Source: Roseofilum reptotaenium CS-1145 (GTDB taxonomy: Bacteria > Cyanobacteriota > Cyanobacteriia > Cyanobacteriales > Desertifilaceae). From it: a stretch of 64,000 nucleotides of DNA. Below the pieces are notes generated by a model, which saw only the letters and a list, made by a program, of their open reading frames with translations, was not told the origin of the DNA and ran no database searches. The position numbers and the translations under genes are program-made. Shown here one piece after another: positions 6,821-61,827 of this stretch; position 1 is the first letter of the stretch, and each line of letters starts with the position of its first letter. The stretch covers positions 1-64,000 of the forward strand of contig NZ_JAQMUE010000072.1 of the NCBI RefSeq assembly GCF_028330985.1, in the 5' to 3' direction.

Positions 6821-7267
6821 CTAGTAGTATTTGATCAACTTCAAACAATTGCGTCGATCCTCTGTATGGGTATAGCTGAGGCAATCGGCAATATCGGACA
6901 TCATAAACCAACCCCGTCCCCCTTCCTGATCAGGGGTTGGGCGAGGTTGGGTTCTGAGCCATTGCTCAATATCAAACCCTTGGCCATAATCCCAAATCGA
7001 TATGGTGATTGAATCAGCAGCTAAGATCACTTCAATATCAATAGTCGTATCTTTAGCCAAATGATGATGGGCATGTCGAACAGCATTGGTTAATCCTTCA
7101 TAAAATGCAGTTTGACACTCAATCCAGGTGTCTTTAGGAATGGGTAGGGAGGGAGGCTTAAGCTCTTCAAACCAGGCCAAGGCATGGGATAAAGCCTGGC
7201 CATTAGAATGAACTTGCAGATAAGCTCTATGGGGCAATTTCAATGGTATAACCCTTAAATCAGGCAA
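6821..7267 (-). CDS. RsbW/SpoIIAB-like anti-sigma factor serine kinase
   Basis: A stand-alone GHKL ATPase domain (148 aa) of the anti-sigma kinase type. The N-box is EGLTNAVRHAHHH, the G1 box WDYGQGFD and the G2 box GGRGWFMM. Such kinases bind a sigma factor or other partner and phosphorylate STAS antagonists. The frame opens with TTG 7265-7267 (complement CAA); no better start is obvious. It lies beside a PP2C-type response regulator and a STAS protein, which together make a complete partner-switching set. It is separated from them by a mobile-element remnant. Confidence 0.85.
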   Translation of the reverse strand: MPDLRVIPLKLPHRAYLQVHSNGQALSHALAWFEELKPPSLPIPKDTWIECQTAFYEGLTNAVRHAHHHLAKDTTIDIEVILAADSITISIWDYGQGFDIEQWLRTQPRPTPDQEGGRGWFMMSDIADCLSYTHTEDRRNCLKLIKYY

Positions 7268-7421
7268 TCAGCACAGGTGAAGAAGCATTCAAACCCTTGA
7301 ACCCGCCAACCCAAAGGCTATGATTTCATCATAACCATGGGTTTGGAATCGGTAAGATAGAGACGGACACTAAATCGAGGGTCACGCTTCTTACTCAATT
7401 GTGGGTTTGGTGCTTCTGTTT

Positions 7422-7560
7422 TTGACATTCCCCGGCCATTCGATGCGGGGATTCTTGGTTCAACGAGTCCACTTAGACTAAATCCCTTGCGAAATTCAAT
7501 CCAGAGGTAGGTCTCTCCTCAAGCGTTACTTTCCGAGTGCCCCTCGGTAGTTGGATTATT
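7422..7560 (-). ncRNA. candidate omegaRNA-like scaffold at the right end of the element
   Basis: The last ~140 nt before the right end, on the minus strand, contain an inverted CCGAGGGGCACTCGG hairpin, a GTGGACTCGTTGAACCAAGA segment and the terminal CCCCG hairpin. This layout is what I associate with right ends of cyanobacterial tnpB elements, which double as omegaRNA scaffolds whose guide is the flanking DNA. Expression and function are not shown by the sequence; the call is an inference from layout. Confidence 0.35.
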
Positions 7561-7807
7561 CCAAAATTGGTTTTTATTTCAATCCTGTGTTGTCTAGCCC
7601 CTTTGAAGATTTTACCTATTCCTAGGGGAAAACTAGAACAATGGAATAGAACCCCATATCTTCAATTGCCAAGGTACAGATTGCCGTTAGGCATTTAGGT
7701 TTTTATACAGGTTAATTACCATTCCTGTGAATCCCATTGTACCATAAGGGCAGGTTAAAACCTGCCCGCTCGCCTTCATCCCCGGAATGAATTCACGGGG
7801 TTTTCAG
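7422..7807 (-). mobile_element. non-autonomous IS200/IS605-like element (no transposase left)
   Basis: Read on the minus strand, the region starts near 7807 with AAAA followed by a hairpin with arms CCCCG/CGGGG and an 11-nt loop (7780-7800). It ends with a second hairpin of the same arms and loop size (7430-7450), then AATGTCAA (TCAA at 7422-7425). Subterminal imperfect hairpins at both ends and a TCAA right-end cleavage tetramer are hallmarks of IS200/IS605 elements. No tnpA or tnpB frame survives in the ~390 bp. A 20-nt perfect palindrome (GGGCAGGTT arms, 7748-7767) lies just inside the left end. The exact left boundary is inferred. Confidence 0.6.
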
Positions 7808-7895
7808 CATATCTCTTATAAGCGATCAAATAGGCTATCAAAGCGATCTCACTTTTGTCAGATTTTCCAGCTCCCAGTCTGATGACATTTAAATC

Positions 7896-9032
7896 ATGTA
7901 CAAAGTTTTGATTATAGAGGATGACCCTTTGTTTCGGTTAGTGTTGACCAAAGCACTGAAGAATCAAGGGTATGATGTGACCGTTGCCACGAATGGTGAA
8001 GACGGCTTAGAACAAGCAGCCAGTCTGCGCCCTGGATTGATTTTGTGCGATTGGATGATGCCCCGCATGGATGGATTGGAAGTTTGTCGCCGCATTAAGG
8101 CTAATCCTGATTTAACAACGACGTTTTTTGTGCTGCTGACGGCCCGTGAGGGAGTGGAAGACCGGGTTCAGGGTCTCGATAACGGGGCAGATGATTTTTT
8201 GTCTAAACCCATTGAGGTGAATGAGTTACGGGCGAAGGTGCGGGCAGGTTTGCGACTGCACCAACTCAGTCAAGATTTACAAACAGCTAAACAGAGACTT
8301 GAAGAAGAGTTGACAGAAGCAGCAGATTATGTTAAATCACTTCTTCCCGGCCCTTTGCACGAGTCTGTTTCGATTGATTCGAGGTTTATTCCTTCTCGTC
8401 AATTGGGAGGGGACTGTTTTGATTATTATTGGCTCAATGAAAATCAGCTCGTGATTTATGTGGTGGATGCGGCGGGTCATGGTGTGGGCAGTGCCCTGTT
8501 ATCGGTTTCTGTCTTGAATTTATTGCGCTCTCAATCTCTCTCTGGGGTTGATTTTTCTCAACCCCATCAGGTGCTAATGGGTCTGAATGATACATTTCAG
8601 ATGGAAACTCAAGGCGATCGCTACTTTACGATTTGGTATGGGGTTTATCACCGAAAGGAACAGTCTCTGGTCTATGCCAGCTCCGGTCATCCTCCCGCTA
8701 TCCTCTTATCTCCTAGACCCAAGCAGGATATAGAAGTTCAACATCTGAAGACACCCGGTTTCCCCATTGGTATGTTTCCTGGAGTAGAGTATAAGGTACA
8801 TCAGTGTCATATCGAACCCCAGAGTACCCTCTATGTGTTTAGTGATGGGGTCTATGAAATTCATCAGACCGATGGCACACTCTGGGGACTTGAGGCGTTT
8901 AGTGAGTTTTTGGTCACCCATCAACACCTCTGCTCTGAATTGTTAGATCATTTACTCCATTGCATTTATACATTAAATTCCAATACCATCTTGAATGATG
9001 ACTTATCGTTACTTCAGATTAAGTTTCATTAA
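7896..9032 (+). CDS. response regulator with PP2C/SpoIIE-type serine phosphatase output
   Basis: An N-terminal receiver domain (residues 1-120) carries the acidic pocket (EDD 8-10), phospho-acceptor D52 (ILCDWMMPR) and the TAREG and SKP elements. A short coiled coil (residues ~125-150) leads to an RsbU/SpoIIE PP2M phosphatase domain. That domain has metal motifs GGDCFDYYW and VVDAAGHGVGSAL, then FSDGVYE and the late NDDLSLL. The likely job is to dephosphorylate a STAS partner when the receiver is activated. It faces the STAS gene, with 11 bp between stop codons, and is part of the partner-switching cluster. Confidence 0.93.
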   Translation: MYKVLIIEDDPLFRLVLTKALKNQGYDVTVATNGEDGLEQAASLRPGLILCDWMMPRMDGLEVCRRIKANPDLTTTFFVLLTAREGVEDRVQGLDNGADDFLSKPIEVNELRAKVRAGLRLHQLSQDLQTAKQRLEEELTEAADYVKSLLPGPLHESVSIDSRFIPSRQLGGDCFDYYWLNENQLVIYVVDAAGHGVGSALLSVSVLNLLRSQSLSGVDFSQPHQVLMGLNDTFQMETQGDRYFTIWYGVYHRKEQSLVYASSGHPPAILLSPRPKQDIEVQHLKTPGFPIGMFPGVEYKVHQCHIEPQSTLYVFSDGVYEIHQTDGTLWGLEAFSEFLVTHQHLCSELLDHLLHCIYTLNSNTILNDDLSLLQIKFH

Positions 9033-9043
9033 CGGCGAGGCAC

Positions 9044-9367
9044 TCATGAATTCTGCAACTTATTCTCGCACTCCTCACGGCTAGAATAGACCTCAAATAC
9101 CCGATCCATGCTGGTGAGTTCAAAGAGCATCCTTACTTGCTCATTAATGGAGCAGATCAAGAGTTTACCCCCCGCAGAGCGTACAGTTTTTAAAGCCGCT
9201 ACTAGGGCCCCTAGACCAGAACTATCAATAAAGGTTACCTCTTTGAGGTCAATCACGATCGCGTCAGCACCCGATTTGACTAATGCGCTGACTTCATCTC
9301 TAAACTGACCTGCTTTGGTACTATCTAAAATGCCGGAGGGTTGAATGTGTTTAACAGTTTGACTCAT
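9044..9367 (-). CDS. STAS-domain anti-sigma factor antagonist
   Basis: A single-domain SpoIIAA/RsbV-like protein (107 aa). The phosphorylation loop reads VTFIDSSGLGALVAALK, keeping the DSSG core that is phosphorylated in characterised antagonists. It would cycle between the RsbW-like kinase at 6821-7267 and the PP2C regulator at 7896-9032. The ATG at 9365-9367 fits the family N-terminus (MSQTVKHIQPSGILDS). It is convergent with the phosphatase gene. Confidence 0.9.
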   Translation of the reverse strand: MSQTVKHIQPSGILDSTKAGQFRDEVSALVKSGADAIVIDLKEVTFIDSSGLGALVAALKTVRSAGGKLLICSINEQVRMLFELTSMDRVFEVYSSREECENKLQNS

Positions 9368-9576
9368 AGCTCTGGTTGACAGAAGTTGCTAAGTTGGTTA
9401 ACGATCCCGATTTATTGGATTTAGTTCAATAGGATACTATAATTTTCGATTCGGGTTAATCTGATTCTATCCGGATTAACGAAGAACTCAAAGGGGTGCT
9501 AAGATCCTGGATATTTGTGTGTTTAAGGCAATCTCTGCAATCATTGTGGGATTGTCCTTAGAGTCAAACCAAGGTA

Positions 9577-9623
9577 TTTTGAGGGGAGTAGGGTAAAGGA
9601 ATGACGTAGGTTGCTCCTCAAAA
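9577..9623. promoter_or_regulatory. inverted repeat in a 356-bp divergent gap
   Basis: The gap between the STAS gene and the glycosyltransferase gene (9368-9723) contains TTTTGAGG at 9577-9584 and CCTCAAAA at 9616-9623, an 8-bp perfect inverted repeat 31 nt apart. Promoters for both divergent genes must lie in this gap. The repeat could be an operator or a transcript hairpin; nothing else distinctive is seen there. Confidence 0.3.
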
Positions 9624-9723
9624 CCCAAGCGATCTCTGACCAAAATAGGATCGCAATTATAGCTAAATGATTATGGGAAATCAATGCATCTATAACAATA
9701 TAGAGAGATCGCCATTAAAGAGA

Positions 9724-10194
9724 ATGATTCTAACTACAGTTGGCACTGAACCCTATCCCTTTAATCGTTTGATGAGTTGGTTGCAGGTTCTGGTGAACCG
9801 AGAATTGATTCAGGAAGAACTCATTGTACAATACGGCAGTTGTAGCGTTTGGCCTGAAAGCAAAGACTGTTTTGCTGATATTCCAGAGACTGAATTAATC
9901 CAGTTGGGTAAAGATGCTCGTCTGATCATTGGGCACTGTGACCCTCATTGGCTCAAGTGCTTCGATAAAACGGCTAACCCTTATATTTTAGTTCCCCGTG
10001 CCCAATGCTATAAAGAGCATATTGACGATCGCCAAATTGAGTTGGCCAGTAATCTAGCATTGGCAGGAGTTCCCATTGCTTGGTCTCCAGGAGACCTAGT
10101 ACGGTTTCTTCATTCTCCTCGAAGGATTTCTCGGTCTACCCTAATGACAGTCGCCAATGAAACGGTGAAACGCTCTCTAAAAAAGGGCCGTTGA
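9724..10194 (+). CDS. GT28 C-terminal-like glycosyltransferase subunit (Alg13/PssE type)
   Basis: A 156-aa protein starting MILTTVGTEPYPFNRLMSWL, typical of the C-terminal half of MurG/GT28 enzymes found as separate subunits in exopolysaccharide systems. Later segments (DARLIIGHCDPH, then YILVPRAQCYKEHIDDRQIELA) match the nucleotide-sugar-binding part, with the usual PR..HxDDRQ-like turn. The start ATG 9724 follows AAAGAG; an upstream frame from 9667 is rejected. No partner subunit (Alg14/PssD-like) is adjacent. The next gene is a sugar transferase, so a shared polysaccharide pathway is likely. Confidence 0.72.
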   Translation: MILTTVGTEPYPFNRLMSWLQVLVNRELIQEELIVQYGSCSVWPESKDCFADIPETELIQLGKDARLIIGHCDPHWLKCFDKTANPYILVPRAQCYKEHIDDRQIELASNLALAGVPIAWSPGDLVRFLHSPRRISRSTLMTVANETVKRSLKKGR

Positions 10195-10275
10195 CTCAGC
10201 CCTCTGATTTTCACCATAGGGTATTTTTTCTGTTTTGACAGAATAGAACTGCAATAGACTCCCCTTGAGGTGTTT

Positions 10276-11271
10276 ATGAACAATCCAGTTAATCCCCCTG
10301 AGTTTGCCATGACTTCTTTTGGGGCTTGTTGTTTGGTTCAATTATCCAAAAATTTTACCGTGACCCAAGCGGTGGCGTTTAAAGACTATTTTAAGCAGGT
10401 CTGCGATCGGCAATCGGGTCTCGAGCGGGTGATTTTGGATTTAGGACAAACTACATTTATTGATAGTAGTGGTATTGGCGCTTTAGTGGGCTGTTTGAAA
10501 ATAGCTCGTGCCCAGCAGATCGAGTTGATTATTTGGAGTCTTCATCCTCAAGTGAAGATGGCTTTTGAATTAACGGGACTTACGGAGGCCTTTACCATTG
10601 ATCTGGGTACAGATGCCCTGTTAACACCAGTCACTGAGATTCCTCAGAGTGCCCCAAAGATTCATCCTTCGGTACGATCTCCCTTCAAGCGGTTATTAGA
10701 TATTATCGGTAGTTTGGTGGGCTTAGGGATTACGGCACTTCTATTTCTCCCGATTGCGATCGCCATTCAAATTGACGATCCTGGGCCCATATTTTTCGGT
10801 CAAATTCGCTGCGGCTGGATGGGGAAACGCTTTAGAATTTGGAAGTTTCGATCTATGGTGGCGAATGCTGAAGCCCTGAAGCATCAAGTTAAAAATGAAG
10901 CAGAAGGAGCCTTTTTTAAAAATAAGGACGATCCGAGAGTTACCCGTGTAGGGAAATTCTTACGTCGCACGAGTCTAGATGAACTACCCCAGTTTTGGAA
11001 TGTTTTAAGGGGAGAAATGAGTCTCGTGGGAACTCGTCCCCCTACAGCAGATGAAATTGAGCGCTATGAGATTCCTAAATGGCAACGGCTTGATGTGAAA
11101 CCAGGTATGACTGGAGAATGGCAGGTGAATGGGCGATCGTCTATCCGAGACTTTGAAACCGTCATTCAAATGGATTTGCGCTATCAAGAAAACTGGAGTT
11201 TATTGCATGATATTAAACTCATTTTGAAGACTATTGTGGTCTTATTTCAAAAAAATGCGGGAGCGATGTAG
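10276..11271 (+). CDS. STAS domain fused to polyprenyl-phosphate sugar-1-phosphate transferase
   Basis: Two domains in one 331-aa chain. Residues ~10-110 form a STAS domain with the antagonist loop [17 protein letters not shown]. Residues ~130-331 form a bacterial sugar transferase (WbaP/HepC-like): one membrane segment ([20 protein letters not shown]), then [38 protein letters not shown] and [10 protein letters not shown]. The enzyme should load a sugar phosphate onto a lipid carrier for exopolysaccharide. GAGG five bases before ATG 10276 decides the start over GTG 10270. It lies downstream of a partner-switching set, which suggests control by Ser phosphorylation. Confidence 0.9.
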
Positions 11272-19637: not shown

Positions 19638-20669
19638 TTACGGTGTGCGTTGTAAGTATTGGAAAATCAGTTCCGCAGCGAGTTCATTACCGGCAATATT
19701 CCAATGACTATCATTAGGTTTGTAGAGTTGTTCAAATTCTGAATATCCTTGAAAGTAAGGGAGGAGATCGATAAAATTAATCTCCGCTTCATTCAGTTCT
19801 TCTTGTAAGTATTGATTGGGTAAGCTAAAGTCAAAATCTTGGAGATTCATCTCTTGTGAATCAATGACTTTACTTTGTAGATTTGGATTGACTTGCAGTT
19901 CATCAGGAATCAGAATCACAAGCAGCTCAATATTCTGGCGATCGCACAACTCTTTAATTTCTCTTAAATACGTCATGGCTCCCCACACTTTGGATTCTAG
20001 TTCTGAATTATCGACCCGAAACAAGTCACTTCTGCCGATTTCAATTTGTAAATATTTCTCATCCGTGAGTGTGGGTAGATCGTCCTGATACTCTAGGTTG
20101 CCATGAATGACGGTTCCTTCATAACTGTTCTGAAGATCGATGAGGAATTTCCAAAACGAGAACACATAAGAATAGGATTCAATACTGCGTTTTGAATCAT
20201 CAAAATCATTACCGATAAAGAAGCTCAGGATGACTCGATCTGGATTTAAGGCTAGTCCTTCAGTCACCAGAAGAGCAAGATAATCTTTTGGGGAAAGGTT
20301 AGGAATTCCCATATTAATGATTTCTACACGATCGTCTCGTTGTTTGAGTTTCTCTTCCAAGCGAGTATAATAGTTGTAGTTATAGGGAACGACACCATAA
20401 GCAAAAGAGTCTCCTATGCCCAGAATGCGGAAAGTGTTTGGCGCTTTTTCAACTTGAAACTCCACATCTTTGAATCCCTGAGAATTCAAGCGAAAGTTAT
20501 ATTCAGGTGCTAAGGGTTGGCCGCGAAAGCGATTGTAGGAGTTATCATGAAAAATGAAACTGGGATGCAAGTAGTTGTAGACTCGAAAGATAATTTCTGT
20601 TAATCCTAGGGAGATCAAGAGAATTAAGCCGATTTTAGCGAACGTTTGACTTGGTTTTTTAAATCTCAT
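19638..20669 (-). CDS. membrane-anchored SGNH/GDSL-family hydrolase
   Basis: After an N-terminal anchor (IGLILLISLGLTEIIFRVY, residues ~12-30) the protein shows SGNH blocks: GIGDSFAYG (nucleophile Ser), the Gly block NMGIPNLSPKDY, IGNDFDD (Asn) and the terminal DSHWNIAG (Asp-x-x-His). Such enzymes deacylate or transfer acyl groups, often on polysaccharides, outside the membrane. It is 343 aa. It begins 17 bp after the stop of the Ser/Thr kinase gene on the same strand, so the two probably share a transcript. Confidence 0.82.
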   Translation of the reverse strand: MRFKKPSQTFAKIGLILLISLGLTEIIFRVYNYLHPSFIFHDNSYNRFRGQPLAPEYNFRLNSQGFKDVEFQVEKAPNTFRILGIGDSFAYGVVPYNYNYYTRLEEKLKQRDDRVEIINMGIPNLSPKDYLALLVTEGLALNPDRVILSFFIGNDFDDSKRSIESYSYVFSFWKFLIDLQNSYEGTVIHGNLEYQDDLPTLTDEKYLQIEIGRSDLFRVDNSELESKVWGAMTYLREIKELCDRQNIELLVILIPDELQVNPNLQSKVIDSQEMNLQDFDFSLPNQYLQEELNEAEINFIDLLPYFQGYSEFEQLYKPNDSHWNIAGNELAAELIFQYLQRTP

Positions 20670-61470: not shown

Positions 61471-61827
61471 ATGACAAGTACAGCAATGGGTCAGTTTACG
61501 GTTCTTCACCCTCAAGGGTCTTTTGATGCTCAGAGGGGTGAACAGATTTCTCGGCAGATTGAGGAGATCTCCTCTCAAATGTCTATCCTTTGTCTAGATT
61601 TGGCTGGGGTGGGTTTTATGGATAGTGCGGGTTTAGGTAAATTGGTTCATGGACTCAAAGCAGCTCGCCAGCAGGGTTGCCGCCTGGTTCTGTGCAATAT
61701 TCCAGGACAGGTGAAATTAATATTAGATATCGCTAGACTAGAAGGTGTATTTGAAATTTACCCTTCCTACGAAAAAGTATTAGAGGTGTTTCAACCGGAT
61801 CAATTGATGGCATTAAGCGCTGTTTGA
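61471..61827 (+). CDS. orphan STAS-domain anti-anti-sigma-like protein
   Basis: A 118-aa single STAS domain (AMGQFTVLHPQGSFDAQRGE; LCLDLAGVGFMDSAGLGKLV). The loop reads DSAG rather than DSSG/DSTG, so one of the two hydroxyl positions used by phospho-antagonists is Ala; the first Ser remains. No kinase or phosphatase gene lies next to it. The stop overlaps the next, convergent gene by 15 bp. Confidence 0.85.
   Translation: MTSTAMGQFTVLHPQGSFDAQRGEQISRQIEEISSQMSILCLDLAGVGFMDSAGLGKLVHGLKAARQQGCRLVLCNIPGQVKLILDIARLEGVFEIYPSYEKVLEVFQPDQLMALSAV

Follow-up and report, generated by a model that had tools for sequence, protein, structure and literature searches.

A STAS-sugar transferase fusion often lies beside a matching kinase gene in many cyanobacteria, suggesting direct switching of sugar-chain synthesis by phosphorylation

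Introduction

In Anabaena PCC 7120, all4160 is a glycosyltransferase with an N-terminal STAS domain (PMC8256260), and heterocyst envelope polysaccharide synthesis depends on it (PMC4390870). This report concerns a gene set at positions 6821-11271 of a contig of the cyanobacterium Roseofilum reptotaenium CS-1145 (NZ_JAQMUE010000072.1), in which a STAS domain is fused to a phosphoglycosyl transferase (PGT). The whole stretch of DNA that was analysed is referred to as the window and comprises positions 1-64000 of this contig; the genome is 5.67 Mb in 113 contigs. Fusions of this kind were often found beside a matching kinase gene in many cyanobacteria. This suggests that sugar-chain synthesis may be switched directly by phosphorylation. 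The fusion type is already in print as all4160, and sequence comparison indicates that the set is conserved and more general than the window alone reveals.

Other switches of a similar kind have been described. Kinase activity was shown in the Slr1861/Ssr1600 system of Synechocystis and the phosphomimetic STAS protein was no longer bound (PMC12329169). For HmpU/HmpV/HmpW of Nostoc punctiforme, at a motility/polysaccharide locus, output through the unphosphorylated STAS protein was proposed with the target left undefined (PMC8256260, PMC6495340). Phosphorylation of the STAS protein in SypE/SypA of Vibrio fischeri governs polysaccharide-dependent biofilm formation, the target being unknown (PMC8256260). 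Direct post-translational control of an initiating PGT has been described for EpsW-EpsZ in Myxococcus and CapB-CapM in Staphylococcus; in EpsW-EpsZ the PGT is controlled by a bound signalling domain, with dimerisation as the proposed route (PMC12802240). In the open-licence literature the fusion was mentioned (PMC8256260, PMC4390870) with nothing tying a kinase or phosphorylation to it, and no partner-switching control of an initiating PGT was found; subscription papers were mostly outside this search.

Results

All five genes that a first-pass annotation of this DNA had read in 6821-11271 were found there, four of them with Pfam matches. Eighteen proteins of the window, from 226 to 20669, were scanned with Pfam. 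The features are listed with strand, length in amino acids (aa) and Pfam E values.

6821-7267, minus strand: RsbW/SpoIIAB-like serine kinase, 148 aa (HATPase_c_2 2.5e-20; E57, N61, G95 and G119 kept)
7896-9032, plus strand: response-regulator receiver with SpoIIE/RsbU-type PP2C phosphatase, 378 aa (Response_reg 8.7e-30, SpoIIE 1.4e-42)
9044-9367, minus strand: single-domain STAS antagonist with FIDSSG loop (STAS 3.2e-22)
9667-10194, plus strand: GT28 C-terminal-domain-like (Alg13/PssE-type) protein, usual loop lost
10270-11271, plus strand: STAS-PGT fusion, 333 aa (STAS 7.3e-17, Bac_transf 2.3e-66)
10321-10602, plus strand: fused STAS domain, residues 18-111, fold like TM1442, SpoIIAA and RsbV
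10465-10467, plus strand: codon for S66, the phospho-acceptor predicted in the fused STAS domain (FIDSSG), serine in 141/141 fusions
10687-11247, plus strand: PGT domain, residues 140-326, with Asp-Glu dyad D237-E238 (DE in 141/141)

The FIDSSG loop that had been reported for both STAS proteins was read in the lone as well as in the fused domain. By analogy the acceptor serine of the lone STAS protein is predicted to be S49. The fused STAS domain matched SpoIIAA/RsbV by sequence and by fold and carries the acceptor loop of a SpoIIAA/RsbV-type antagonist. When searched against solved structures by sequence, the transferase part of the fusion was nearest WbaP and PglC and the STAS part nearest SpoIIAA. 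A structure model of the fusion (mean pLDDT 75.9) gave the same division, with one half matching PglC and the other TM1442, SpoIIAA and RsbV. One long helix was modelled at 138-169. The linker at 114-130 was of low confidence and the model was uninformative on the position of the STAS domain relative to the active site. A Bac_transf domain with the Asp-Glu dyad is that of a monotopic PGT (the PglC/WbaP catalytic domain). By sequence and model, the product of 10270-11271 is thus classed as a PGT with an anti-sigma-antagonist-type STAS domain at its front. The genome has five Bac_transf places.

The sole match of the kinase among the sequences of solved structures at E <=0.01 was RsbW 6m36 (E 0.0018). 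Its N-box and G-box residues E57, N61, G95 and G119 were invariant in 28 aligned rows, as in a GHKL ATPase. In the phosphatase D173, D191, D317, D368 and D369, presumably the metal binders, were invariant across 16 rows, in keeping with the SpoIIE/RsbU type.

The fusion protein was searched against 386 genomes of the phylum and gave at least 96 rows spanning both domains in at least 86 genomes. The surroundings of 96 fusions (window included) were compared with those of 40 plain PGT loci using profiles built from the window's proteins. These controls were the first 40 plain PGT rows listed after the fusions, out of a longer set and with genome G159 excluded. Two loci (L209 and L210) were counted in the 96 by alignment; their STAS domains are divergent (GLDSSA) and were missed by the STAS profile, and no partner gene was near. 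A partial match in G159 (L211, residues 85-331) was tried as a STAS fusion and left out of the 96 because alignment showed no STAS domain.

An RsbW-like kinase gene was present within 5 kb of 40 of the 96 fusions, downstream on the same strand in 37 of the 40, compared to 1/40 plain PGT controls. It lay within 300 bp of 30/96 fusions, and 29 of these were downstream on the same strand. The sole control with a kinase (L212) is taken to be a frameshifted fusion, since STAS code lies in another frame directly ahead of the PGT. At L212:8400-9621 the STAS part is frameshifted, a GT28 gene lies upstream and the kinase overlaps downstream. PP2C genes were found within 5 kb of 8/96 fusions and 0/40 controls, and lone STAS genes within 5 kb of 11/96 fusions and 1/40 controls. 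Just 8 of these 40 kinase-linked fusions had a lone STAS gene within 5 kb, which leaves the fused STAS domain as the sole local substrate candidate at the other 32.

The identical five genes occurred in identical order in the second genome of the genus, G213 (L116). Five more of the sampled genomes (L118, L119, L120, L124 and L194) had kinase, PP2C and lone STAS genes all within 5 kb of the fusion, in differing orders, compared to 0/40 plain PGT controls. Because of this recurrence the grouping of the five genes is unlikely to be due to chance.

In a further set of named loci the kinase was near 11 of 45 fusions, including those of Planktothrix, Microcystis, Microcoleus, Cyanobium and Laspinema. 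The 80 named fusion relatives kept by the search were all cyanobacterial by title except L032 and L070. The contig that carries the fusion at L032:7963-8991 bears the label Rhabdochromatium marinum, a species we take to be a purple bacterium; G+C was 0.61 for the contig and 0.62 for the fusion, and the locus may reflect transfer or contamination.

Sampled and named sets together gave 48 downstream same-strand kinases (37 and 11, respectively). In 21 of the 48 a candidate start codon lay within the 3' end of the fusion, and for 12 of these 21 there was no alternative start codon before the kinase core. A gap of several hundred bases followed the fusion in 9/48 (e.g. L133 and L145), so overlapping translation is not general. 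The sequence of the pair often looks like a single translation unit. Seven of the kinases (L118, L119, L120, L124, L130, L134 and L155) had Trp-Gly (HWG/QWG) in the ATP lid, in place of the GRG of most other aligned kinases; their activity may be weak, or they may act only as binders.

At the genome level a kinase of the window's type was found in at least 83 of the 86 fusion genomes and in at least 39 of the 300 without a listed fusion, a comparison uncorrected for shared ancestry. The fusion genomes without a kinase match among those listed were G014, G076 and G093, one genus by code. Kinase distances tracked the fused STAS domain (partial r 0.60) over the PGT domain (0.27), a weak result with a difference interval of 0.01-0.61. 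This correlation used 30 of 48 rows after removal of near copies, and relatedness was controlled through the PGT domain only.

The serine and the dyad were followed in an alignment of 141 fusions (96 sampled and 45 named, with possible overlap in species). Of the two serines in the D-S-S-G loop, the first was present in 141/141 and the second in 138/141. The Asp-Glu dyad of the transferase was present in 141/141. Only one split pair was seen, with separate STAS and PGT neighbours and no nearby kinase (L218:8992-10294, minus strand); there the loop reads FLDGFG and the serine is gone.

These results favour the reading that the kinase acts on the fused STAS domain and would thereby directly switch one glycan pathway at its first membrane step, a reading to which we give a probability of roughly 0.6 on sequence comparison and analogy. 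Several observations, set out in this and the following paragraphs, weigh against it. No kinase was found within 5 kb of 56/96 sampled and 34/45 named fusions, and a contig end lay within the first 1 kb downstream in only 0/56 and 2/34 of these, respectively. PP2C was lacking within 5 kb of 88/96 sampled fusions. By raw count, homologues thus mostly lack a nearby kinase or phosphatase, which the first-pass annotation had named as grounds for refuting its proposal; 45 of the 56 kinase-less fusions form a single clade. This clade had an SH-aLRT of 100 in a tree of the 96 fusions, and outside it 40 of 51 fusions have the kinase. Its 45 members all came from genomes of family code f5. Among the 34 named kinase-less loci, 23 were by title Nostoc, Anabaena, Calothrix and related genera, presumably Nostocales. 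The protein all4160 probably belongs to the same clade.

A DUF3318 gene lay within 3 kb of 35/45 fusions of the kinase-less clade and 21/40 kinase-linked fusions (56/85 together; e.g. L025:8100-8762), and of 0/40 controls. Because this gene adjoins both kinds of fusion, much of the clade probably sits at the same locus and the kinase was probably lost there. In this clade the serine is retained and the STAS domain is no less conserved (0.65 compared to 0.57 in kinase-linked fusions, at a PGT identity of 0.80-0.85). Decay of the serine loop as an accompaniment of kinase loss was considered and rejected; G014, G076 and G093 keep the serine, with the loop glycine altered in two of them.

The kinase-less clade would also fit a fused STAS domain that is never phosphorylated and has a purely structural role, making contact with the membrane or within a dimer like those of SulP transporters or MlaB, with the downstream kinase serving another STAS protein. 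STAS domains can act as subunits without phosphorylation, and a serine is usual in the loop of partner-switching STAS domains, so that its presence does not by itself prove its use here. A purely structural role is nevertheless improbable given that the serine is kept in all 141 fusions and lost in the split pair without a kinase, and that no other local substrate candidate exists at 32 of the 40 kinase-linked loci.

The second set of opposing observations concerns the window's own kinase. Free-standing cassettes elsewhere (e.g. L262-L269) share the window's layout of kinase on the minus, PP2C on the plus and STAS on the minus strand. The window's kinase grouped with those of the free-standing cassettes in a tree of 65 sequences (SH-aLRT 87, not starred), away from the kinases downstream of fusions. 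Among the matches listed, kinase and PP2C genes of this kind were no more than 3 kb apart in at least 59 genomes, and in only 8 of these 59 did a fusion lie within 8 kb of the cassette. Five of these eight listed genomes belonged to family f5 and two to the window's genus, the eighth being G229. Sixteen of the cassette genomes had no fusion among the matches listed, which means that the cassette must act on other targets. At least 24 genomes carried a separate cassette in addition to a fusion-linked kinase. The earlier proposal that the kinase acts on the fused STAS domain has strong comparative support in the 29/96 fusions with a same-strand kinase within 300 bp downstream and in the invariant serine, and is less secure for the kinase of the window itself.

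The cassette and the fusion of the window could accordingly be unlinked neighbours, the cassette signalling elsewhere and the adjacency having arisen by chance in this genus. The frequent solitary cassettes agree with this, as does the sister genus G008, where the kinase and PP2C genes are found on a separate contig (L255). The lone STAS gene of G008 nevertheless still adjoins the fusion (L117), and kinase, PP2C and STAS genes lie by the fusion in other lineages and in other orders (the L118 group, L194 and the named loci L033, L035 and L046). In addition, a kinase gene downstream of the fusion is missing from both genomes of the window's genus. We consider mere adjacency unlikely. On sequence evidence the window is classed as a rearranged and partly decayed example of the general fusion-kinase set, and the cassette beside its fusion probably serves that fusion.

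The cassette was also compared with hmpUVW. The tags of hmpW and hmpU are consecutive (Npun_R5134 and R5135) and hmpV lies apart (Npun_F5169) (PMC10581220). These locus tags do not fit the kinase (-), PP2C (+), STAS (-) layout and identity is not claimed. At 61471-61827 (plus strand) the window has another lone STAS gene, which encodes 118 aa and has the loop FMDSAG.

The last opposing point comes from Slr1861, a SpoIIAB-type Synechocystis kinase that pairs with a STAS protein and acts as an anti-SigC factor (PMC12329169). By analogy the fusion might control the kinase, the membrane-bound STAS-PGT capturing an RsbW-type kinase and freeing a sigma factor or other client during glycan synthesis. 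The all4160 transcript was reduced in sigC and sigE mutants, direct and indirect effects not being distinguished (PMC4390870), and the window's genome has 11 Sigma70_r2 places. None of these was on the window's contig (sigma genes near other loci were not searched for), which counts against control of the kinase by the fusion; the switch without a sigma factor that the first-pass annotation had proposed is more than this result shows. The fusion is moreover an enzyme with its dyad intact in 141/141 rows, which would be odd for a mere antagonist. Control of the kinase by the fusion seems a minor prospect, and action of the kinase on the fused STAS domain is retained as the preferred reading.

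The gene at 9667-10194 had been read as a GT28-like subunit. This was borne out for its relatives, as 12 of 15 aligned rows matched Glyco_tran_28_C and most relatives read HCGEGT (the HCGxGT loop). The window protein itself had no Pfam match at E 0.01 and its loop reads HCDPHW; the HCGxGT loop is lost in this protein and its two nearest relatives. A GT28 (Alg13/PssE) subunit would have the C-terminal domain with the loop and an Alg14/PssD partner, and no Alg14 match was found in the window's genome. Because of the lost loop and the missing Alg14 match the protein is probably an inactive relic, or a protein with another role.

GT28-like genes were found near 14/96 fusions, all upstream on the same strand, compared to 2/40 controls, one of them the frameshifted fusion L212. 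In addition to the 14, one locus encoded GT28, STAS and PGT in one 473-aa frame (L130:8998-10416, minus strand). An Alg14-like gene lay upstream of the fusion in L118, L119, L120, L124, L129, L134, L147, L155, L177 and L207. It was accompanied by a GT2 relative in all of these except L177, and in the named loci L036 and L043. The arrangement of GT2, Alg14-like, GT28 and fusion genes is presumably a glycan operon of the PssD/PssE kind. GT2 relatives were also present within 3 kb of 4/40 controls.

In L118, L119, L120 and L124 genes for GT2, Alg14-like, GT28, STAS-PGT, kinase, STAS, receiver-PP2C and a relative of hybrid histidine kinases lie together (L118:5676-16429). The histidine kinase, read in L118, has HNOBA, PAS, GAF, HisKA, receiver and Hpt domains. 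By its predicted domains, a chain from sensor to glycan enzyme is collected in one place in these four loci. The GT28 gene of L118 is seemingly split by an in-frame stop.

Among the 18 scanned window proteins (226-20669) Pfam gave no glycan gene besides the fusion and an AlgX-like SGNH protein. Exopolysaccharide, named as the product by the first-pass annotation, is therefore more specific than these two genes allow. The AlgX-like gene (ALGX 7.9e-9) is located 8 kb from the fusion at 19638-20669 (minus strand) and is a possible glycan acetylation gene.

Discussion

Domains, gene order, conservation and phylogeny were seen directly, and from them a mechanism can be proposed in which phosphorylation and its direction, competition between STAS domains and the glycan itself are predicted. 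The STAS domain on the PGT would be a regulated docking module. An RsbW-type kinase would bind the unphosphorylated STAS domain and phosphorylate the first serine of D-S-S-G (S66 in the window's fusion), and a SpoIIE-type phosphatase would remove the phosphate. Any lone STAS protein encoded as well would compete for the same kinase. Docking or phosphorylation may then alter the activity or assembly of the transferase, providing a direct switch of the initiating glycan step. In many lineages the kinase would act from the same operon, just downstream of the fusion. In the window's genus this downstream kinase is absent, and a cassette that stands alone elsewhere adjoins the fusion and probably serves it.

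Tentatively, and at slightly under even odds, a partner-switching class may exist across cyanobacteria whose client is an initiating glycan enzyme, reached through its built-in STAS domain and a same-operon kinase, and not a sigma factor. The targets of HmpV and SypA may likewise be PGTs or their kinases. The spending of limited polyprenyl phosphate on surface glycans has mostly been studied as transcription. If the fused STAS domain is a kinase substrate, it would give a concrete and testable answer to what STAS outputs without a sigma client act on. One serine per protein is enough for such a test, which could also be made in heterocyst formers (all4160).

The domain layout of all4160 is the same as that of the window's fusion. 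The latter has a GT28-like gene and partner-switching genes alongside, whereas all4160 is not tied to a kinase or phosphatase in the available text of PMC8256260 and PMC4390870. With RsbU/RsbV/RsbW and SpoIIE/SpoIIAA/SpoIIAB the window shares the kinase, STAS antagonist and PP2C families and the D-S-S-G loop. It differs from both in that no sigma gene was found on its contig and that its second STAS domain is fused to a membrane enzyme. The Slr1861/Ssr1600/SigC system and the icfG operon of Synechocystis have a SpoIIAB/RsbW-type kinase and STAS substrates (PMC12329169), as predicted for the window. The output of Slr1861/Ssr1600/SigC is a sigma factor and no sugar transferase is described in the available part of that paper, whereas the window has the fusion. 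EpsZ and CapM are controlled by a response regulator and a tyrosine kinase, respectively, compared to a predicted STAS kinase here, and the term STAS is absent from the main text of PMC12802240. SypA is a lone STAS protein, while the STAS domain of the window's fusion is part of the enzyme.

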